Source: Paraburkholderia sp.
GTDB taxonomy: Bacteria > Pseudomonadota > Gammaproteobacteria > Burkholderiales > Burkholderiaceae
DNA: 64,000 nt
Direction of reading: 5' to 3'
NCBI GenBank assembly: GCA_004322045.1
Contig: SCRN01000043.1
Location: 1-64,000, forward strand
Shown: one piece after another, positions 18,766 through 28,937 of the stretch
How positions within the stretch are numbered: position 1 is the stretch's first letter
Layout of the letters: every line of letters begins with the position of its first letter
The notes under the pieces: generated by a model
What the model was told of the DNA's origin: nothing
Database searches by the model: none
Seen by the model: the letters and a program-made list of their open reading frames with translations, nothing else
Position numbers and translations under genes: made by a program

Positions 18766-19761
18766 ATGGAGCTCGTCTGTCCGGCCGGCAGCCTGCCGGC
18801 ATTGAAGACCGCCGTCGATAACGGCGCCGATTGCGTCTACCTCGGCTTTCGCGACGCGACCAACGCGAGAAACTTCGCGGGCCTGAATTTCGACGAAGCG
18901 TCGATCCGCACCGGCATCGACTATGCGCACGAACGTGGGCGCAAGGTGCTGGTCGCCCTCAATACCTACCCGCAGCCGACGGCGTGGCCCGTCTGGCGCA
19001 CCGCGGTCGATCGCGCGGCGCAGGCCGGCATCGATGCCGTTATCGTGGCCGATCCGGGGCTCATGCGCTATGCGCGCGATCGCTATCCGGATTTGCGCTT
19101 GCATCTGTCGGTGCAAGGCTCGGCGACGAACTACGAAGCGATCAACTTCTATCAGCAGCATTTCGGCGTCTCGCGCGCCGTGCTGCCGCGCGTGCTATCG
19201 CTCACGCAAGTCGAGCACGTGACGGAAAACACCACGGTCGAACTCGAAGTATTCGGCTTCGGCAGCCTGTGCGTGATGGTGGAAGGGCGCTGCGCGTTGT
19301 CCTCGTATGCGACGGGCGAGTCGCCCAATACTCACGGCGTCTGTTCACCCGCGAAGCACGTGCGCTGGCAAAAAACCTCGCAGGGGCTCGAGTCGCGCTT
19401 GAACGGCGTGCTGATCGACCGTTACGCAGACGACGAGAACGCGGGCTACCCGACGCTGTGCAAAGGCCGCTTCGACGTGGCCGGCGAAAGCTATTACGCA
19501 ATCGAAGAGCCGACGAGCTTGAACACGCTCGAACTGTTGCCGCGTCTCATGCAAATGGGCGTGAAGGCCATCAAGATCGAAGGCCGGCAACGCAGCCCCG
19601 CCTACGTGGCGCAAGTCACGCGCGTATGGCGCGACGCGATCGATCAGTGCCAGGCCAACCCGCAGCGCTACAGCGTCAAGCCGGCTTGGATGGGCGAGCT
19701 CGACAAAGTGGCGGAAGGTCAGCAACACACGCTGGGCGCCTACCATCGTCCTTGGAAATGA
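18766..19761 (+). CDS. ubiU: O2-independent ubiquinone biosynthesis protein UbiU (U32 family)
   Basis: 331 residues opening MELVCPAGSLPALKTAVDNG, the U32 peptidase-like start. Four cysteines have spacing C-X6-C-X16-C-X38-C (SLC, GRC, GVC, TLC), identical to the [4Fe-4S] ligands of E. coli UbiU. With UbiV it hydroxylates the ubiquinone ring without O2, using prephenate as oxygen donor. Followed directly by ubiV and ubiT, the same trio as in E. coli. Expected in the cytosol as a UbiUV heterodimer. Confidence 0.93.
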   Translation: MELVCPAGSLPALKTAVDNGADCVYLGFRDATNARNFAGLNFDEASIRTGIDYAHERGRKVLVALNTYPQPTAWPVWRTAVDRAAQAGIDAVIVADPGLMRYARDRYPDLRLHLSVQGSATNYEAINFYQQHFGVSRAVLPRVLSLTQVEHVTENTTVELEVFGFGSLCVMVEGRCALSSYATGESPNTHGVCSPAKHVRWQKTSQGLESRLNGVLIDRYADDENAGYPTLCKGRFDVAGESYYAIEEPTSLNTLELLPRLMQMGVKAIKIEGRQRSPAYVAQVTRVWRDAIDQCQANPQRYSVKPAWMGELDKVAEGQQHTLGAYHRPWK

Positions 19762-19781
19762 GGCGCAGTGCAGGAGAGCAA

Positions 19782-20702
19782 GTGAAGATCGCAATCGGTC
19801 CGATTCATTACTATTGGTCGCGCGTCAAGACGCTGCAATTTTACGAAGAAATGAGCACGGCGCCCGTCGACATCGTGTATCTGGGCGAGACGGTGTGCTC
19901 GCGGCGTCACGAGTTGCGCCTGCCCGATTGGCTCGAAATCGCGCAGATGCTTTCGCAGGCAGGCAAGGAAGTCGTGCTGTCGACGCAGATTCTGCTCGAA
20001 TCGGGCAAGGACGTCGCGACGATGAAAGCCGTGACCGGCAACGGAAGCTACCTCGTCGAAGCGAACGACATGGGCGCGGTTCGCAACCTGCAAGGCAATG
20101 CGTTCGTTGCGGGTCCCTGGCTCAACGTCTACAACGAACCGACGCTGGACGTGCTGGCCGGCGTGGGCGCCAAGCGCTGGGTCATGCCGCTGGAAATGAG
20201 CGCGGATGCGCTCGCACAGATGCAGCGCGCGCGGCCCGACGGCGTGCAGACCGAAGTCTTTGCCTACGGGCGTTTGCCGCTCGCGTTTTCCGCCCGGTGC
20301 TTCACTGCGCGACAACGAAATCTGCCGCGCGAAAACTGCCAATACGTCTGCATCGAACACCCAGATGGTCTCATGCTGCGCACGCGAGAAGGGCAGCCCT
20401 TCCTCGTCTTGAACGGCGTCTCGATTCAATCGGCGCGAGTCTACAACCTCGTCGATTCGATCGATACGTTGAAAACGCTCGGCGTCGATGTGCTCCGCTT
20501 GAGCCCGCAGTCACAAGGGATGAGCGAAATCGTCGCCATCTTTCGAGATGCGGCCGATGGCAGGCTGAGCGGCGCGCGGGCCTTGGAGCGCATGGCGCTG
20601 CTCATGCCCGAATCGCGCTGCGACGGATATTGGCACGGCATGCCGGGGCTGGCTCAGAAACAGGAATCGACGCAGGTGGAATCCATTAGGAGTGCTCAAT
20701 GA
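19782..20702 (+). CDS. ubiV: O2-independent ubiquinone biosynthesis protein UbiV (U32 family)
   Basis: 306 residues from the GTG at 19782 preceded by AGGAG; the frame is open upstream inside ubiU but shows no homology there. KIAIGPIHYYWSRVKTLQFY is the family start. Cluster cysteines: GETVCSRR, then C-X12-C-X3-C (RCFTARQ...ENCQYVC), the spacing of Cys180/193/197 in E. coli UbiV. Forms a heterodimer with UbiU. The stop overlaps the ubiT start (ATGA). Confidence 0.93.
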   Translation: MKIAIGPIHYYWSRVKTLQFYEEMSTAPVDIVYLGETVCSRRHELRLPDWLEIAQMLSQAGKEVVLSTQILLESGKDVATMKAVTGNGSYLVEANDMGAVRNLQGNAFVAGPWLNVYNEPTLDVLAGVGAKRWVMPLEMSADALAQMQRARPDGVQTEVFAYGRLPLAFSARCFTARQRNLPRENCQYVCIEHPDGLMLRTREGQPFLVLNGVSIQSARVYNLVDSIDTLKTLGVDVLRLSPQSQGMSEIVAIFRDAADGRLSGARALERMALLMPESRCDGYWHGMPGLAQKQESTQVESIRSAQ

Positions 20703-21166
20703 GTCAGGGCGGCTACGAGATGCCTTCGCTGATACGCGGCGTGTTGTCCAAGCTACCCGCATATCCGGGATCGCTGTTGTTCGTCGGGGGGCTCAATTTG
20801 ACGGTGAAGCCCCATCTTCCCGACGATACGCTCGCGCAACTGCAAGATCGCGCGTTGCGAATCGAAGTGCGCGACGCGGGGGTGGCGTTCGACTTCGTCT
20901 ACCGCGGCGGCGCGTTTCGCGCGGCACGACACGTCGGAGAGATCGCACTGACGATCAGCGCGAGCGCTTACGACTTCTTTCAGTTGGCGCGGCGCACGCA
21001 AGACCCCGACACGCTGTTTTTCAGCCGCCGCTTGACGATGGAAGGCGACACGGAACTCGGGCTGCTCGTCAAGAATTCGCTCGACGCGATCGACTTGTCG
21101 AACTTTTCGCTCGAGCGGTTCGCGCCCGCGTTTGCAGTTCGCGGCAGGCGCAGCCCGCCGCGATAG
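20699..21166 (+). CDS. ubiT: SCP2-domain lipid carrier UbiT
   Basis: 155 residues with an SCP2 sterol-carrier domain: hydrophobic N-terminal helix, then a beta sheet with LRIEVRDAGVAFDFVY and the end segment MEGDTELGLLVKNSLDAID, which matches the UbiT/YhbT pattern. It binds polyprenyl quinone precursors and is needed for the anaerobic route in place of UbiJ. Four-base overlap with ubiV. Confidence 0.88.
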   Translation: MSQGGYEMPSLIRGVLSKLPAYPGSLLFVGGLNLTVKPHLPDDTLAQLQDRALRIEVRDAGVAFDFVYRGGAFRAARHVGEIALTISASAYDFFQLARRTQDPDTLFFSRRLTMEGDTELGLLVKNSLDAIDLSNFSLERFAPAFAVRGRRSPPR

Positions 21167-21236
21167 CGGTGCGCCTCCCGCGGGGGGGCGGCTCCAACGC
21201 TCGTCGGCGTGGAGCAAAGTCACGGAGGTTTCGAAG

Positions 21237-21653
21237 ATGAACAATGAACGTCGCGCGTTACCGCTCGTCTACTCGTGCTCGGGGTGCTCGAGCGCGGCGC
21301 AGATGGCCAATTACGTCGCCTTGCAGCTCGACCGGCGCGGCATGGCTGAAATGTCGTGCATCGCCGGCGTGGGCGGGGATGTCCCCGCACTGGTCAAGAT
21401 CGCCCTCTCCGGGCGGCCGATCATTGCGATCGACGGGTGCCCGCTCGCATGCGTGAAGAGCTCGCTCGCGCGGCACGACATCGCCGCGGACGAATACGTG
21501 CAGTTGGCCGAGCATGGGGTGAAGAAGCGATTTCATGCCGATTTCGACGTGGAGCAGGCGGAGCAAGTCATCGAGGAAGTGTCGCGCGCGGCCAGTTCGC
21601 TCCTCGAGGGCGAAGCGCAGGCCTGCGACGCCGCCTCCGCCGAGCCTCGCTGA
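21237..21653 (+). CDS. DGC-domain putative zinc-binding protein
   Basis: 138 residues starting at the ATG at 21237 with GGAGG. CSGCSSAAQ near the N-terminus and IDGCPLACVK at about 67-76 are the four cysteines of the DGC domain (PF08859), thought to bind zinc. The domain occurs in anaerobic and respiratory gene clusters but has no known reaction. Here it follows ubiT and precedes, convergently, the class III reductase genes. A role in sulfur or metal handling is possible but unproved. Confidence 0.83.
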   Translation: MNNERRALPLVYSCSGCSSAAQMANYVALQLDRRGMAEMSCIAGVGGDVPALVKIALSGRPIIAIDGCPLACVKSSLARHDIAADEYVQLAEHGVKKRFHADFDVEQAEQVIEEVSRAASSLLEGEAQACDAASAEPR

Positions 21654-21741
21654 ACCTAGCCGACGATTGGCGAAACCCGGCGAGCGCCTCGCACATTGCG
21701 TATTGCGTATCCCGGCGTATCCCGCGCCGCGTCCCCAACGC

Positions 21742-22488
21742 TTAGCCGCGCCTGACATCGAACGTAGGAAAGAGCTTGCGCATTTCATCGAGCGTCGGCC
21801 CGCTCGGGTACCCTGCCGTGCCTACCGCATTCAACGCGGCATCGGCCGATCCTTGCTTGCGGAAGATCTGCAGGTAGTGCGTTTTCACGCCCATGTCCGA
21901 GAGTGAGTGCGCGAGCTTGAGCAGCGCCGCATCGGTTAGCAAGCTCGGGTGCGCAGTCGTTCTGCACTCATAATCGACCCCGCTCGAGAGCAGCGCTTCG
22001 AGGCTGCGCTGCGCGAACGTTCCGCTGTCGCGCATGCGCGTCACTTGCTCGTAATCCTCGAACGGCGCTTTCACGTCGAAGCCGACCCAATCGACGAGCG
22101 GCAGCACGCGTTCGAACCGCCGCGGATGCGTTCCTGCGCTGTGCATCCCGATCTTGAAACCGAGTGCGCGGACATCGCCGATGGCGGAGGCCAGCGCCGG
22201 ATCGGACGTCGGCTCGCCGCCGCTGAACACCACCGCATCGATCAACCCGACGCGGCGCGTTAGAAAACTCATCACGTTGGCCCAAGAGACGGCGCCCTCG
22301 CGCGTGCGCGGCTGCAAATGCGTGTTATGGCAGTAGCCGCAGCGCCACGGGCACCCTTGCACGAACACGACTGCGGCCAACTGGCCCGGATAATCGGTGG
22401 CCGTGAAAGGCGCGACGCCGCCGACCTTGAGCAGTCGCAGCGGCGTCGCACGCTTGGCAGCGGGCGCGGATTCGGCCTCAGGCAGCAA
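21742..22488 (-). CDS. nrdG: anaerobic ribonucleotide reductase activating enzyme
   Basis: 248 residues with the radical-SAM motif C-X3-C-X2-C in CPWRCGYCHNTH, FSGGEPTSDP and a GMHSAGTHP strand. It makes the glycyl radical on NrdD with SAM and reduced flavodoxin. The start is a TTG at 22488 (GAAGAGG upstream), inside the end of the 58-codon glycyl-radical gene, so the two are translationally coupled. At 248 residues it is longer than E. coli NrdG (154) and closer to the pflA-like TIGR02495 group. Confidence 0.9.
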   Translation of the reverse strand: MLPEAESAPAAKRATPLRLLKVGGVAPFTATDYPGQLAAVVFVQGCPWRCGYCHNTHLQPRTREGAVSWANVMSFLTRRVGLIDAVVFSGGEPTSDPALASAIGDVRALGFKIGMHSAGTHPRRFERVLPLVDWVGFDVKAPFEDYEQVTRMRDSGTFAQRSLEALLSSGVDYECRTTAHPSLLTDAALLKLAHSLSDMGVKTHYLQIFRKQGSADAALNAVGTAGYPSGPTLDEMRKLFPTFDVRRG

Positions 22489-22654
22489 GCGAAGCCTCTT
22501 CCGTGAAGTAGGTGCGCTCGTAGAATTCGCCCTTCTTGCCCGTGTTGAACGAGGAGACCGGCCGGTGGTACCCCATCACGCGCGTCCAGATCTCGCAGGG
22601 CTGACGCTCTTCATCGAGCAGCACGGGGGTGGCGTTTTGAGTGGTCGCGTTCAT
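22478..22654 (-). CDS. stand-alone glycyl-radical C-terminal piece of class III ribonucleotide reductase
   Basis: A 58-residue gene with its own GGAG ribosome site, which lies in the last codons of nrdD, and its ATG two bases after the nrdD stop. CEIWTRVMGYHRP followed by FNTGKKGEF is the part normally fused to the C-terminus of NrdD; the glycine of RVMGY is the radical site. The large NrdD next to it ends after its zinc cysteines and lacks this segment, so the radical must be made on the small protein. No simple frameshift joins them: stop, Shine-Dalgarno and start are all separate. The gene overlaps nrdG by 11 bases. Confidence 0.85.
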   Translation of the reverse strand: MNATTQNATPVLLDEERQPCEIWTRVMGYHRPVSSFNTGKKGEFYERTYFTEEASLAA

Positions 22655-22656
22655 GG

Positions 22657-24447
22657 TTAGGACTCCGTAGTTTCAGTCATTGCGGGTTGATTGCATTTGC
22701 GTTGAAGCAGCGCTTCGTCGCATTTGGGACAAAACTCATGCTTGCCGGGCAGATACCCGTGCTTGGGGCAAATCGAGAACGTCGGCGTGACGGTGATGTA
22801 CGGCAGCGAGAAGCGGCTCAGCGTGCGCTTGACGAGTTCGCGGCAAGCGTCGGCCGACGATAGCGGCTCGGTCATGTAAAGATGCAGCACGGTGCCGCCC
22901 GTGTACTTGCGCTGCAGATCGTCTTGGTGCTCGAGCGCTTCGAACGGATCTTCGGTGAAGCCGACCGGCAACTGCGACGAGTTCGTGTAGTACGGCATCT
23001 CGGACGTGCCGGCTTGCAAAATGTCGGGGTAGCGCTTGCGGTCTTCCTTGGCGAAGCGATAGGTCGTGCCTTCTGCCGGCGTGGCCTCGAGGTTGTACAT
23101 ATGCCCCGTTTCCTCTTGGAACGCGAGCATCTTGGCGCGAATGTGGTCGAGCAGACGCACGGCGAACGCATGGCCCCATTCGGTCGTGAGGTCGTGCTCG
23201 TCGCCCGTGAAGTTGCGGATCATCTCGTTCACGCCATTCACGCCGAGCGTGGAGAAGTGATTGCGCAGCGTGCCGAGGTAGCGCTTCGTATAGGGGAAAA
23301 GCCCGTTGTCGATGTGCTTCTGAATGACGAGCCGCTTGATCTCCAAGCTCTGCTTGCCCAACTCCAAAAGGGTGTCGATGCGCGTCATGAGCGCCGCTTC
23401 GTCGCCCGCATACAAATAGCCGAGCCGCGCGCAATTGATCGTGACGACGCCGATCGAACCGGTTTGCTCGGCGGAGCCGAACAAGCCGTTGCCGCGCTTG
23501 AGCAGCTCGCGCAGATCGAGCTGAAGGCGGCAGCACATCGACCGAATCATGTTCGGCTTCAGTTCCGAATTAATGAAGTTTTGAAAGTACGGCAGGCCGT
23601 AACGCGCCGTCATCTCGAACAGACGGTTCGCATTGGGACTCGTCCAGTCGAAGTCTTCCGTGATGTTGTAGGTCGGAATCGGGAACGTGAAGACGCGGCC
23701 CTTGGCGTCGCCGGCCTGCATGACTTCGATGTAGGCCTGGTTGATCATGTCCATCTCGGCTTGCAGCTCGCCGTAGGTGAAGTCCATCTCCTTGCCGCCG
23801 ATGATGGGCACTTGCTCGCGCAGATCCTCCGGGCAGACCCAATCGAACGTGAGATTCGTGAACGGCGTTTGCGTGCCCCAGCGCGAAGGCACGTTCAGGT
23901 TGTAGATCAGTTCCTGAATGTATTGGCGCACCTCGTCGTAGCGCAGGCCATCCTTGCGCACGAACGGCGCCATGTACGTGTCGAACGAGCTGAACGCTTG
24001 CGCGCCGGCCCATTCGTTCTGCAGCGTGCCGAGGAAATTGACGATTTGCCCGACGGCGCTCGACATATGCTTGGGCGGGCCTGCTTCGACCTTGCCCGGC
24101 ACGCCGTTGAGCCCTTCGGTCAGCAACATGCGCAGCGACCAGCCGGCGCAGTATCCCGAGAGCATGTCGAGATCGTGGATATGCAGATCGGCGTCGCGAT
24201 GCGCTTCGCCGACGGCGGGCGGATAGATATGGCTCAGCCAATAGTTGGCGACGAGCTTGCCCGAGATGTTGAGGATCAACCCGCCCAGCGAGTAGCCCTG
24301 ATTGGCGTTCGCATTGACGCGCCAGTCCAGCCGGTCGAGATATTCGTCGATGGCGGAACCGACTTCGACGAAAGGCTTGGACCGATCGGCTGCTGGCGCG
24401 AGACGAATGGCTTGGGGGAGACGGTCAAGCGTTGGCTGGCGTTCCAT
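22657..24447 (-). CDS. nrdD: anaerobic (class III) ribonucleoside-triphosphate reductase, catalytic chain without glycyl-radical tail
   Basis: 596 residues. NANANQGYSLGGL, DLHIHDLDMLSGYCAGWSL and GNGLFGSAEQTGSIGVVTIN are NrdD core motifs; the end CPKHGYLPGKHEFCPKC is the zinc site. The usual RVxGYxxP glycyl-radical segment is missing and is encoded by the next gene, so the two chains must assemble. No N-terminal ATP-cone is evident. Start at 24447 (GAGG upstream); the ATG/TTG at 24465 is inside an NrdR box. Makes dNTPs from NTPs without oxygen. Confidence 0.92.
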   Translation of the reverse strand: MERQPTLDRLPQAIRLAPAADRSKPFVEVGSAIDEYLDRLDWRVNANANQGYSLGGLILNISGKLVANYWLSHIYPPAVGEAHRDADLHIHDLDMLSGYCAGWSLRMLLTEGLNGVPGKVEAGPPKHMSSAVGQIVNFLGTLQNEWAGAQAFSSFDTYMAPFVRKDGLRYDEVRQYIQELIYNLNVPSRWGTQTPFTNLTFDWVCPEDLREQVPIIGGKEMDFTYGELQAEMDMINQAYIEVMQAGDAKGRVFTFPIPTYNITEDFDWTSPNANRLFEMTARYGLPYFQNFINSELKPNMIRSMCCRLQLDLRELLKRGNGLFGSAEQTGSIGVVTINCARLGYLYAGDEAALMTRIDTLLELGKQSLEIKRLVIQKHIDNGLFPYTKRYLGTLRNHFSTLGVNGVNEMIRNFTGDEHDLTTEWGHAFAVRLLDHIRAKMLAFQEETGHMYNLEATPAEGTTYRFAKEDRKRYPDILQAGTSEMPYYTNSSQLPVGFTEDPFEALEHQDDLQRKYTGGTVLHLYMTEPLSSADACRELVKRTLSRFSLPYITVTPTFSICPKHGYLPGKHEFCPKCDEALLQRKCNQPAMTETTES

Positions 24448-24462
24448 GCGGTCCTCGATGAG

Positions 24463-24507
24463 CACAATATGTTGTGATGTTGCTCATCGTATGCACCATA
24501 TATGGTG
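24463..24507. promoter_or_regulatory. tandem NrdR boxes upstream of nrdD
   Basis: CACAATATGTTGTG (24463-24476) and CACCATATATGGTG (24494-24507) both fit the NrdR core CAC-W-ATATAT-W-GTG, the second as a perfect palindrome apart from the W position. Their centres are 31 bp apart, three DNA turns, the spacing normal for NrdR pairs. They point to repression by NrdR when dATP/ATP is high. Confidence 0.82.
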
Positions 24508-24564
24508 GGGTCAATGCCGAAGATCGGCATTATCGCTTCTTCTTGACCTGAGTTAAGTTTCGAG

Positions 24565-24593
24565 CGGTCGCGCCCCCACGCAGTGCGCGACCG
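24565..24593. other. stem-loop in the gap between the DUF2249 gene and nrdD
   Basis: CGGTCGCGC pairs with GCGCGACCG around an 11-base loop. No T-tract follows on either strand, so it may be a weak terminator for the DUF2249 transcript or a processing site. Confidence 0.4.
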
Positions 24594-24652
24594 ATTGCCG
24601 TGGCGACGGCCGCTCAATCGCTGAGCTGCCGGCTTGCCGGTTGGCGAGTCGC

Positions 24653-24985
24653 TTAGCCGCCGCTGCAGCCGCAGCTGCCGCCGCCGCCGGCGCAGCCGCC
24701 TGCCGATGATTGCTCGGCGGGAGCGCCGGCGTTTGCCGTGAGCCAAATGCCGAAGTCGATCGCGATCCGCTCAGGGGAGCGCTCGACATACTGAATGCGG
24801 ACTTGGTCGCCGTAGCGCTGCTGGATTTGATTGAGCAGAGGCAGCGGATCGTGGTCGTTGACGAAGCGCATCGTTTCGCCGTGATCGAGCGTTTCCAGCG
24901 CCGCGAAGATCGCTGCGTGACGGAAGCGCTTGGCGATGCCGCGTGCGTCGAACAGATAGGTTGCTTCGGGGGAAGGGAGGGCCAT
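24653..24985 (-). CDS. DUF2249 protein with Gly/Cys-rich tail
   Basis: 110 residues, start at 24985 with GGAG. The core, FDARGIAKRFRHAAIFAALE, ETMRFVNDHDPLPLL and QRYGDQVRIQYVE, is the DUF2249 fold. It ends in a 17-residue low-complexity tail with three cysteines (GGCAGGGGSCGCSGG), which looks able to bind a metal. It precedes nrdD on the same strand and follows an NnrS-like gene. Function unknown. Confidence 0.78.
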   Translation of the reverse strand: MALPSPEATYLFDARGIAKRFRHAAIFAALETLDHGETMRFVNDHDPLPLLNQIQQRYGDQVRIQYVERSPERIAIDFGIWLTANAGAPAEQSSAGGCAGGGGSCGCSGG

Positions 24986-25086
24986 GCTTGACTCCGATAT
25001 GCAAATCAAAGGAAAAATGCGGTCTTCACCCAAAGGCGAGCCGCCGGTAATCGATAAAGAAGCGGTTAGGGCTGCAAAATGTTGCG

Positions 25087-26229
25087 TCACCTCCTGTGCG
25101 AGACGATGCGCGACTCGGTGCGCGCGGCCCAAGCCGCCCGCGCCATGACGGCGACGAACAAAGCGAGCGCGATTGCATTGCCGATGGCGCCCGCGCGGCG
25201 CAAGGCGAACGTATCCATGAGCGCGCCGGCCACGCGCGCGCCGAGCGCGATATGGAGCACGACGAGCGGCAGGTAGAACACGGGGCGATAGCTCACACGC
25301 AAGCGTGCGACCGCGGGCAGCACGATTGGTGCGTGGCCAAGCGCCATCGAGATCACGAAACCGAGCGTGAGCGCATGCAGCGCGGCGTCGTGCCAAGGGT
25401 GATCGACGCGCCAAGCGCCGAACACGCCTAGCGCGCCGCTCAGCGCGAGCCATCCATAGCCTGACAACAAGCACACCGCGATAAAGCGCGTCAGGCCGCG
25501 TTGGCGCACCGTGACGCGCGCGATGTCGTAGCGCGTGAGCCATGCGGCTAGTGCAATGAGGCACGCGGAGAAAATACGCAGGCCCGCGTCGGGCATGCGC
25601 AATGCCCATACGACGCCGACAAGCAAGACGACGACGACTGTCACGAACCAGGCCCGTGCGCGCCGCGGCGTCGGCCGCAGGCGTGTGAGCTCGAGCCGCT
25701 CCGCGGCGATCGTCAAGACGAGAAACGCGATCCAGCTCGGCACTGCGGCAAGCGGCGTGCTTGTCATGAGCCAGAGCAGATCGCCGAACCACCAGCTCGA
25801 TACGCCGAGTGCGAGTATCGCGAGATGCAGCTCGGTATGGCGGCGCACCAATCCGAGCACGCTCGCGAGTGCGAGCGATGCGCCCACGAAAAGAAGCAGT
25901 TGCGCGAACATGGGCGGCGCGCCCGCCAATAGCAGCACGGCGGCGAGTACGACCGCCACGGGCGCGTAAAGATGACGGCCGCCGCCGAGCGCGACAGCTC
26001 GCTCCAAGCTCACCACCGCGCCGAAGAACATGGGCAGCACCAGCACGCCGTGCCACACCGCATTGGTCACCGCATGGGGCGGCAGCGCCACGCCGAAGCG
26101 CGCCAGCCCGGCGAGCACGCCGCAAGCGAACGTCAGCACGACTGCCGCGGCGAACGCGACCCGCATCACAACGCGCAAGGGCGGCGCCTTCGAAACGGCG
26201 TGCGGCGTCCGGTTCAATCGTCGCTCCAT
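25087..26229 (-). CDS. NnrS-like multi-pass membrane protein
   Basis: About 380 residues, some 12 membrane helices. HALTLGFVISMALGHAPIVLPAV near residue 300 is the most typical segment of the NnrS and related haem/copper membrane proteins tied to NO tolerance. The start chosen at 26229 overlaps the upstream DUF59 stop by 16 bases and has only a weak ribosome site; ATG at 26166 is an alternative. Between norZ/DUF59 and a DUF2249 gene. Known NnrS proteins lessen NO or iron-nitrosyl stress; the mechanism is unsettled. Confidence 0.7.
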   Translation of the reverse strand: MERRLNRTPHAVSKAPPLRVVMRVAFAAAVVLTFACGVLAGLARFGVALPPHAVTNAVWHGVLVLPMFFGAVVSLERAVALGGGRHLYAPVAVVLAAVLLLAGAPPMFAQLLLFVGASLALASVLGLVRRHTELHLAILALGVSSWWFGDLLWLMTSTPLAAVPSWIAFLVLTIAAERLELTRLRPTPRRARAWFVTVVVVLLVGVVWALRMPDAGLRIFSACLIALAAWLTRYDIARVTVRQRGLTRFIAVCLLSGYGWLALSGALGVFGAWRVDHPWHDAALHALTLGFVISMALGHAPIVLPAVARLRVSYRPVFYLPLVVLHIALGARVAGALMDTFALRRAGAIGNAIALALFVAVMARAAWAARTESRIVSHRR

Positions 26230-26552
26230 CCCAGCGTCTCGCGCGCCGCATCGCTCATCATCGACGGGTCCCAAGGCGGTTCCCAAACGAGGTCGATGTC
26301 GACGCTCGTGCCGATCGCGAGCGATGTGTCGATGACCGCGCGCACGTCGTCGAGGATCGATTGACCCATCGGACACGCGGGGGAGGTCATGGTCAAGGCG
26401 ATGCGCCAGCCTTCGTGGTTCGATTCGACATCGTAGACGAGGCCTAGATCGACGATGTTGATGCCGATCTCGGGATCGATGACTTGCGTGAGCGCAGCGT
26501 GTATCAGCTCGCGCGTCATCGGTGCGGTGGAGGCGATCGTTGAGGCGTTCAT
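26214..26552 (-). CDS. DUF59/MIP18-type metal-sulfur cluster assembly protein
   Basis: 112 residues, start 26552 with GGAG. VIDPEIGINIVDLGLVYDVE is the DUF59 signature, and MTSPACPMG carries the conserved cysteine. Relatives (SufT, PaaD-like) help mature Fe-S or other metal centres. It lies between norZ and the NnrS-like gene, so repair or loading of centres hit by NO is a likely job. A strong hairpin stands just upstream. Confidence 0.85.
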   Translation of the reverse strand: MNASTIASTAPMTRELIHAALTQVIDPEIGINIVDLGLVYDVESNHEGWRIALTMTSPACPMGQSILDDVRAVIDTSLAIGTSVDIDLVWEPPWDPSMMSDAARETLGWSDD

Positions 26553-26581
26553 AGTATTTCTCCGAACAAGTTCGATGGCCA

Positions 26582-26609
26582 GACGGCCGGACCCAAGGGT
26601 CCGGCCGTC
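26582..26609. other. perfect 13-bp stem-loop between norZ and the DUF59 gene
   Basis: GACGGCCGGACCC, two bases, and the complete complement. It lies 30 bp upstream of the DUF59 start in the transcribed spacer. With no T-run it resembles an intercistronic stabiliser or partial terminator rather than a full stop. Confidence 0.6.
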
Positions 26610-26657
26610 GCGAGGCGTCATGCGAACACGAGCCCTATCAACTGAGCATGGCGCGAC

Positions 26658-28937
26658 TTACACGCGATGCACCGCGGACTTCACGGGCGCTTCGATCGGC
26701 CGGCGGGGACGCAGCAGGCGCAGGGCGAACCACCCGAGGTAAAGCACACCGACCGCGAACAGGATGTCGCCGGGCACGCGCACCCAGACGAGCGCCTGCA
26801 TGATCGGCGAATGCACGATTTCAGGCGAGCGCGCATACCAGAGCCCCTTGCTGACGCTGGCCCATGCTTCGTAGATCCCCGACGGCAGGATCGAGAAGAA
26901 CACCATCATGAACAGACCAATGTTGAGCAGCCAGAACGCGGGCTTGAGCAGCGAGTCGTCCCAAGCTTCGCGCGCCGACAGGCCGCGCAGGCAGAACAAC
27001 ATGAGACCGATGCCAAGCATGCCGTAGACACCGAACAGCGCGGCGTGGCCGTGTGCGGGCGTGATGTTGAGCCCTTGCACGTAGTAGAGCGAGATCGGCG
27101 GATTGATCGAGAAGCCGAGCAGTCCTGCGCCGACGGTGTTCCAAATGCCCACTGCGACGAAGCAGAGAATTGCCCACTTGTACGTTTGAACCCACGGCGC
27201 CGCTTTCGTCTTGCGGTACGTTTGCCAGCCTTCGAGCCCGATGAGTGCGAGCGGGACGACTTCGAACGCGGAGAACACCGCGCCGACAGCGATCACGGCC
27301 GTCGAGGCGCCAGTGAAGTACAGGTGGTGCAGCGTGCCGAGAATGCCGCCGAAGAGGAACACGATCGTTTCGAGCACGATGGCGTTGTTGGCCGACTCGA
27401 TTCGAATGAGGCCCAGACGCGAGAAGATCAGTGCGATCACGGCCGTTGCGAACACTTCGAAGAAGCCTTCAACCCACAGATGCACGAGCCACCATCTCCA
27501 GTACTCGATCATGGAGTAGTGCGTGTGTTGGCCCCAGGCGAGCGACGTCGAGTAGAACGCGCCGATACAGGCGGCGGACAGGAACACCATGCCGATCAAA
27601 CCGCGTCCGTTCGTCTTCGGGTTCTTCAGCGCGGGCATCAATGCGCGGCCCATCAACACCAGCCAGAACAGCAGGCCGACGAACAGCAGAATTTGCCAGA
27701 CGCGACCCATGCTCGTGTAGGCGAGCCCTTGGTTGCCGATCCAGAACGCGAAATCGGTGCCGCGGTGCTGCAGCGTGCCGAGCCAGCCGAATGCCGTCGA
27801 TCCGACGACGATGAACAGCAGCGCGTAGAACAGGACATCGACGCCGAGCTTTTGGTACTTGGGCTCGTGTCCCGACAACAGCGGCGAGATATACAAGCCG
27901 GTCGCGAGCCAGGCCGTGGCAATCCACAGCACGCCGAACTGCGTATGAATCGTGCGGCTAACCACCCACGGCAGCACCTTGGCCAGCGGGAAGCCGAAGA
28001 AGCTATGACCCTCGACGGCATAGTGGGCCGTGATGGCGCCCATGCCCACTTGCACGAGCAGCAAGCCGATGACCACGTAGAAGTACTTCTTGGTCGCCTT
28101 CATCGAAGGCGTTGCCTTCACATTGAACAGCGGGTCTTGCGCGGGCGGCGCGACAGGCGCTTCGCCGGAGTCGTGCGCCGAGTGGTACCAGATCATGGCG
28201 GCGATACCGGCGAGCAACAGGATCACGCTCACGACCGACCACATGCCGTTGGCGACCGTCGGATTGTTGTCCACGAGCGGTTCGTGCGGCCAGTTGTTCG
28301 TGTACGTGATGTTCGATTGCCCGGGGCGATCGGTCGTTGCCGACCAAGCCGACCAGAAGAAGAACGCGGCGAGCGCTGTGCGATCGTCTGCGCTTTGGAC
28401 CGAACCCGCGTTCATGGCGTATTGATCACGCAATGTATCGAGCGAGTGATCGGTGCCGAACAACGCTTCGTAGTGAGCGGCGACATCGCGGGCCGCACTG
28501 GTGCGCGCATCGGACATTGTGATACGGCCCGTTGCGGCGTCGTAGCGGTTTGCGCGCATCTCGCGCTTCAGGCGCGCGTCCAGCGTGCCTTGCTCGTCCG
28601 GCGTGAGCGCCGCATACGGCTTGCCGAATTGTTGCTGGGCCCAGTTTTCGCGCAGTTGCAGCGCTTCACGGTGCAACCAATCGGCCGACCAATCGGGTGC
28701 AACGTAGCTGCCGTGACCCCAGACGGTGCCAAGCTGCTGGCCGCCGGCCGCGAGCCAGACTTGCTGGCCGCGCTTGACTTGATCGCCGGTGAACAGCACT
28801 TGACCGCTGTCGCTTACGACCGCGCTTGGAATGGGCGGGGCGGCCAAATAGATTTCCCTACCGAGCCAAAGCAAGGCGGCGAACGATAGCAGGCAGACCA
28901 GGCCCAGCCATCTCCATAAGCGTCGTGTTGAATGCAT
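26658..28937 (-). CDS. norZ: quinol-dependent nitric oxide reductase (qNOR)
   Basis: 759 residues, the length of single-chain qNOR. An N-terminal helix and a periplasmic domain (to about residue 225; GQQVWLAAGGQQLGTVWGHGSY) replace the NorC cytochrome. The NorB-like helices hold HTQFGVLWIAT for the low-spin haem, HLWVEGFFEV for FeB with its glutamate, HHLYFTG, and PAHGHAALFG for the haem ligands. It takes electrons from ubiquinol and reduces NO to N2O. No nitrite reductase is in view, so it more likely protects against NO than completes denitrification. Also called norB. Confidence 0.95.
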   Translation of the reverse strand: MHSTRRLWRWLGLVCLLSFAALLWLGREIYLAAPPIPSAVVSDSGQVLFTGDQVKRGQQVWLAAGGQQLGTVWGHGSYVAPDWSADWLHREALQLRENWAQQQFGKPYAALTPDEQGTLDARLKREMRANRYDAATGRITMSDARTSAARDVAAHYEALFGTDHSLDTLRDQYAMNAGSVQSADDRTALAAFFFWSAWSATTDRPGQSNITYTNNWPHEPLVDNNPTVANGMWSVVSVILLLAGIAAMIWYHSAHDSGEAPVAPPAQDPLFNVKATPSMKATKKYFYVVIGLLLVQVGMGAITAHYAVEGHSFFGFPLAKVLPWVVSRTIHTQFGVLWIATAWLATGLYISPLLSGHEPKYQKLGVDVLFYALLFIVVGSTAFGWLGTLQHRGTDFAFWIGNQGLAYTSMGRVWQILLFVGLLFWLVLMGRALMPALKNPKTNGRGLIGMVFLSAACIGAFYSTSLAWGQHTHYSMIEYWRWWLVHLWVEGFFEVFATAVIALIFSRLGLIRIESANNAIVLETIVFLFGGILGTLHHLYFTGASTAVIAVGAVFSAFEVVPLALIGLEGWQTYRKTKAAPWVQTYKWAILCFVAVGIWNTVGAGLLGFSINPPISLYYVQGLNITPAHGHAALFGVYGMLGIGLMLFCLRGLSAREAWDDSLLKPAFWLLNIGLFMMVFFSILPSGIYEAWASVSKGLWYARSPEIVHSPIMQALVWVRVPGDILFAVGVLYLGWFALRLLRPRRPIEAPVKSAVHRV

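Follow-up and report, generated by a model that had tools for sequence, protein, structure and literature searches.

A class III ribonucleotide reductase encoded by two genes in Paraburkholderia and its relatives, with the glycyl-radical segment on a small gene of its own

What are we to make of an anaerobic ribonucleotide reductase whose radical glycine does not lie on the chain that holds its active site? This question is raised by a 64,000-nucleotide stretch of Paraburkholderia sp. DNA (contig SCRN01000043.1, positions 1 to 64,000; hereafter the window). Here the large NrdD gene of a class III enzyme (the core) stops short of the glycyl-radical segment, which is encoded by a small gene (the tail) lying between the core and the gene of the activase NrdG (Table 1). 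The examined portions of the literature treat this segment as a built-in C-terminus of the class III enzyme. We find that the two-gene class III reductase is real and conserved. Comparison of sequences indicates that it is very probably a two-subunit anaerobic enzyme with an exchangeable radical peptide, similar to YfiD/GrcA but obligatory here.

Table 1. Position of the split reductase genes in the window and of stand-alone tails at other loci
Feature	Position	Strand	Basis
NrdD core: catalytic barrel and zinc motif, without the glycyl-radical segment	22657..24465	(-)	PF13597, NF006126, invariant residues
Stand-alone glycyl-radical tail gene, 58 aa, radical Gly in RVMGY	22478..22654	(-)	PF13597, dN far below dS
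Junction: GGAG Shine-Dalgarno (22666-22663) within the last codons of the core, stop TAA, two spacer bases	22655..22666	(-)	sequence
NrdG activase (radical SAM)	21742..22488	(-)	TIGR02495 NrdG2
Extra stand-alone NrdD tails in prophage lysis cassettes	L182:3683-3838; L183:2412-2621		flanking endolysin and Rz-like spanin
Tails of Allochromatium plasmids (pALVIN01, pAt1)	L131:2995-3204; L280:2460-2645		

The core has 602 amino acids if translated from GTG 24465, or 596 from the in-frame ATG 24447, which an earlier note on this DNA had taken as its boundary. It ends with CPKHGYLPGKHEFCPKCDEALLQRKCNQPAMTETTES and a stop codon, 20 residues past the last Cys of the zinc motif CPKHGYLPGKHEFCPKC, and RVxGY is absent from it. 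The TAA of the core is followed by two bases (CC) and then by the tail ATG at 22654, with GGAG 8 nt upstream; the 58 codons and stop of the tail include CEIWTRVMGYHRPVSSFNTGKKGEF. These frames bear out what the earlier note had described, namely that NrdD ends after its zinc cysteines without RVxGY and that a separate 58-codon gene with its own Shine-Dalgarno sequence begins two bases on. The overlap of the small gene with nrdG, also claimed there, amounts to 11 bases if NrdG begins at TTG 22488, a start that is uncertain.

The Pfam family NRDD (PF13597) matches the core over profile positions 2-529 (E 1.5e-172) and the small protein over positions 531-562 (E 1e-7; 31.5 bits against a gathering cut-off of 26.2). 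The two matches jointly span nearly the whole profile and share no profile position; the small gene was thus correctly recognized before as the normal NrdD C-terminal segment. The split is more than chance, since the tail exceeds the gathering cut-off and most of the sampled genomes with this type of core show the same arrangement. The core also matches NCBIfam NF006126 (93-661 of 684), and the NrdG adjoining the tail belongs to TIGR02495, NrdG2 (E 5.9e-58, 195 bits against a cut-off of 131). In a 27-row alignment C106, C311, C312, C566, H569, C579, and C582 are invariant in the core; the first three are presumed, as in the family generally, to be active-site cysteines and the other four to bind zinc. 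The locus therefore has the NrdD barrel, the active-site cysteines with the zinc motif, and the dedicated activase of a class III enzyme, while the RVxGY radical glycine is not on the same chain but on a separate frame. An AlphaFold2 model of the window core (mean pLDDT 71.6), used for fold comparison, has the NrdD barrel fold. Among PDB sequences the tail profile matched nothing related (best E 0.39). No ATP-cone was detected in this core, for which Pfam gives NRDD alone, and overall dATP control of the enzyme may for this reason be absent. The naturally fused protein L192, unlike the window core, has a model matching an ATP-cone structure.

How common is this arrangement? The less biased count was made from the core, in 300 genomes of the order including that of the window. 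An NrdD match was found in 94 of them, 82 of the close type and 12 of the distant type. According to the tail profile, the tail is a frame of its own no more than 400 nt from the core in 71 of the 82 close-type genomes, lies farther off or on another contig in five (443 nt in G156, 2.4 kb in G100, about 9.5 kb in G044, other contigs in G092 and G190), and is fused in five, all of one genus. The tally of split against fused forms, proposed earlier as a check, is thus 76 of 82 in which the tail occurs solely unfused against five fused.

Other samples were searched with the tail. A match was found in 15 of 61 genomes (relatives and the window's own), and at 14 of these 15 tail loci a script detected a core with the zinc motif, set off from the tail by a different frame or by a stop codon; G044 has no core nearby. 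In a scan of named genomes, tail-selected and hence biased to close tails, 80 loci were kept of 509 confirmed. Search with the window core revealed a separate core in 78 of the 80 and none in two (L022 and L082); the L082 stretch begins close by, and the script saw a core end before its tail. One of the 78, L086 from Massilia sp. H-1, has a disrupted core frame with the core end in the frame of the tail and was called fused by the script, which could reflect sequencing error or partial re-fusion. At the phylum level 17 of 398 genomes had a tail match, 13 of them in open frames of at most 275 aa, too short for a core, and four in frames of 612-735 aa. At the class level there was a match in 29 of 321 genomes, and 25 loci from this sample (L282-L306) comprised 19 split, one fused, three with a tail but no core in the stretch, and two without a tail at the script threshold.

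Among the records examined, plasmids carry the split form in C. necator (pHG1 of strain H16), C. metallidurans, Bradyrhizobium, Sulfuricurvum, and Shinella, and the fused form in Actinomyces, Acidiphilium, and Geoalkalibacter. In public records the tail is already annotated as a small reductase gene in its own right, for example WP_011154154.1 of C. necator H16, and likewise in Bradyrhizobium, Sulfuricurvum, Allochromatium, and Shinella. In the examined tables its product name is that of the whole reductase, and the split and its meaning are unmarked. The split core of C. necator H16 has a computed mass of 76.19 kDa; the NrdD in the abstract of Siedow et al. 1999 (Alcaligenes eutrophus nrdDG) is reportedly of 76.2 kDa. 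If these authors or Wei et al. 2014 (Neisseria bacilliformis) already remarked on the split, as they may have done, it is less novel.

If both genes are so widely kept, then we can ask: Is the tail a working gene in this genome? In 14 of 15 comparisons of tail codons (38 codons, six loci of the genus) dN was 0-0.06 and dS 0.6-2.3; in the remaining one dS was undefined. The tail is under strong purifying selection. It could still be supposed that the split enzyme is silent here and that other reductases supply the DNA precursors, as the genome has two loci (contigs C34 and C4) with PF02867, the large-subunit domain of other reductase classes, and directly upstream of nrdD there is no FNR-like site within two mismatches. 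However, the reading frames of core, tail, and NrdG are all open, and selection of this strength on the tail within the genus makes a silent enzyme highly improbable. As to the neighbourhood, the region 18766-28937 looks by eye like a cluster for anaerobic respiration, with genes that we presume to be UbiU/V/T-like, NnrS-like, and NorB-like, and the window holds 26 FNR-type sites within two mismatches against 12.5 expected, about a twofold excess.

Could the small protein be merely a repair part of the YfiD type, serving an intact NrdD that is the actual enzyme? According to parts of PMC8683613, pyruvate formate-lyase (PFL) that oxygen has cleaved is restored by the stand-alone glycyl-radical proteins YfiD and Y06I, and the small protein resembles them as a stand-alone chain of 58 aa with the motif RVMGY. 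A glycyl-radical domain of the GrcA/YfiD (PFL) type was not found in it, only PF13597 matching at E<=1. The repair reading is contradicted here by the genome itself, where the PF13597 search at E<=1 returns just the core and the tail and no intact NrdD, and also by the 76 sampled genomes whose tail is solely unfused; we regard it as barely credible for this locus, whereas phage-borne tails may act in this way. A second full-length NrdD, which the earlier note had named as a possible refutation, was not found by that search. The comparison with YfiD made there fits the mode of working, but the tail is no spare, being the only copy of the radical segment that the search detected.

Over 72 core and tail pairs on the same contig and strand (including the non-adjacent G044) the tail frame is evenly spread, 25/24/23, and the spacing between core and tail varies widely among close-type genomes. 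Frameshifting or sequence error would favour one tail frame, and an artefact is therefore rejected. There is next to no chance that a sequencing error or pseudogenization has broken a single gene in two here, or that the pieces are joined through programmed frameshifting or readthrough of the stop. Although the gap here is merely two bases and fused relatives exist, the even frames, the varying spacing, the five of 82 genomes with the tail more than 400 nt away or on another contig, the purifying selection on tail codons, and the Shine-Dalgarno sequence upstream of the tail ATG all speak against both. The split is a real arrangement and not a sequencing error; the frame error once considered for this locus is excluded by conservation in many genera and by the even frames.

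How would such a two-subunit reductase work? From the fused enzymes we infer that the two chains dock and that the small one bears the radical. The core holds the barrel with its active-site cysteines as well as the zinc motif, and the 58-residue peptide holds the radical glycine. NrdG would abstract hydrogen from the glycine of the peptide, alone or docked, and the RVMGY loop would enter the core barrel without a covalent link. The radical would then pass to an active-site cysteine to give a thiyl radical, as it does from the C-terminal loop of fused enzymes. Oxygen cleaves at the radical glycine both in the class III reductase (excerpt of PMC3019208) and in PFL (excerpt of PMC8683613). Separate translation would turn the part destroyed by oxygen into a cheap, replaceable subunit, renewal requiring in our opinion a peptide of 6.7 kDa where a single-chain enzyme would need some 75 kDa of new protein (computed masses: core 68.2 kDa, tail 6.7 kDa). 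Such a natural two-chain system would make docking, activation, and radical transfer separable for testing.

Three observations weigh against this reading or parts of it. First, the AlphaFold2 model of the fused L192 has a mean pLDDT of 71.4, and some of its alignments to NrdD chains extend into the tail stretch, but its confidence drops over the tail (68, 61, 43, 42, and 36 in the last five ten-residue blocks), and the model therefore does not show docking. Second, one of the 82 close-type genomes, G227, has a partial core match (query 29-507) and no tail found by the tail profile. Third, in a tree of 104 cores (quick IQ-TREE, LG+G4, SH-aLRT support only) branches with support of at least 95 force just two changes between split and fused forms, and the forks that concern re-fusion have moderate support (83-90).

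This tree also bears on the origin of the split. Several fused rows are basal, and others (genus g61; Acidiphilium) are nested within the split clade; parsimony gives five split/fused changes. Some long branches meet and support is limited, so that single placements are unsure. The basal fused proteins (L194, L196, L197, L279, L301) lack the Cys preceding E(V/I)W and have, where measured, a short link to the radical motif, for example CPKCGEETKVWTRVMGY. In the alignment this Cys is present in all 154 distinct separate cell tails, in 59 of 63 distinct viral tails, and in seven of 12 distinct fused proteins. Fused proteins nested in the split clade retain it, L192 having CPKCDSANLEERQPCEIWTRVMGY. 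Their position inside the split clade together with the retained Cys suggests, with moderate support, that some of them are re-fusions of separate genes. The scheme is not tidy: the Cys occurs as well in Actinomyces L129, a fused protein near the base, and Sulfuricurvum L128, which is split, groups with a fused row, and for these reasons a second independent split is possible. CxxCD closes the zinc motif in the split cores of the tree. No core Cys stands out as a partner of the conserved tail Cys by being clearly confined to split cores; C345 and C541 are variable among basal fused rows and are retained in nested ones. The enzyme is thus cut at its radical segment in most sampled relatives with the same NrdD type, and in places seemingly re-joined.

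Tails also occur apart from cores. In G044, G092, and G190 the tail lies away from the core beside a radical-SAM gene resembling nrdG; a search detected nrdG at two of these loci, G044 and G092. Extra tails, one or two each, are present in five of the 82 close-type genomes; in G141 and G279 the extra tail is part of a prophage lysis cassette, with an endolysin on one side and an Rz-like spanin on the other. No core or nrdG is annotated in the examined stretches around the plasmid tails of Allochromatium vinosum and A. tepidum.

Viral contigs are a further source. In IMG/VR 165 stretches encode the tail, of which the best 80 loci (L198-L277), some near-identical, were taken as the viral set. 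Single-sequence search with the window proteins (E<1e-5, up to 4 kb each side) revealed no core or nrdG near these 80 tails. Fifty of the 80 records are at least 15 kb long; scanned whole with PF13597 only, NrdG being sought only in the fetched stretches, each has one match, confined to profile positions of about 530-562, and 49 of the 50 pass the cut-off. Thus many viral DNA fragments apparently carry a tail without a core, but viral records may be fragments and a core may lie elsewhere in the virus. Of the 63 distinct viral tails, 62 have the radical Gly; in the remaining one, L260, the frame ends just before it. The window tail and the three viral tails tested match PHROG 4132, of unknown function. 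INPHARED phages gave two matches (E 2e-4 and 6e-4), which are weak, and the viral claim therefore rests on the IMG/VR contigs and the two prophage loci. When 70 neighbour proteins of viral tails were compared with PHROG, 139 families were matched in mixed contexts, and among the 25 families listed (with terminase and spanin, three members each, and portal, integrase, and endolysin, two each) no gene context was dominant. There is in our view an even chance that stand-alone tails are mobile radical subunits, with which phages and plasmids would keep or restart the anaerobic reductase of the host after oxygen damage. If true, spare parts would not be restricted to PFL among glycyl-radical enzymes. 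The authors who described spare parts state, in part of PMC8683613, that validation had been achieved for just two such proteins, each serving PFL, and that there may be more; the tails, viral ones above all, are concrete candidates for the spare part of a second glycyl-radical enzyme.

How does the locus compare with known systems? No description of split NrdD or of phage-borne NrdD tails was found among the titles and opening abstract lines of the open-licence literature searched, or in excerpts of ten papers (PMC9531940, PMC9669993, PMC4493059, PMC11226230, PMC4390871, PMC2864759, PMC4009431, PMC3019208, PMC8683613, PMC11528403). With the fused NrdD of Thermotoga maritima (4coi/4u3e), phage T4 (1h78), and Prevotella copri (8p23) the split enzyme shares the barrel fold, the Pfam family, the active-site cysteines, the zinc motif, the RVxGY segment, and the NrdG partner; it differs in that a second chain of 58 residues, with a start codon of its own, bears the radical glycine. 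The split class II reductase NrdJa/NrdJb of Pseudomonas aeruginosa is also encoded by two adjacent genes (parts of PMC4009431 and PMC4520616), but class II uses B12 and no glycyl radical, whereas the split described here isolates the radical site. YfiD/GrcA and T4 Y06I are likewise small stand-alone glycyl-radical proteins that need a larger enzyme, and phage versions exist in both cases, Y06I for PFL (part of PMC8683613) and the viral tails here. In contrast to YfiD/GrcA, the tail belongs to a different family, only PF13597 matching at E<=1, and is in this genome not a spare but the sole radical segment found.
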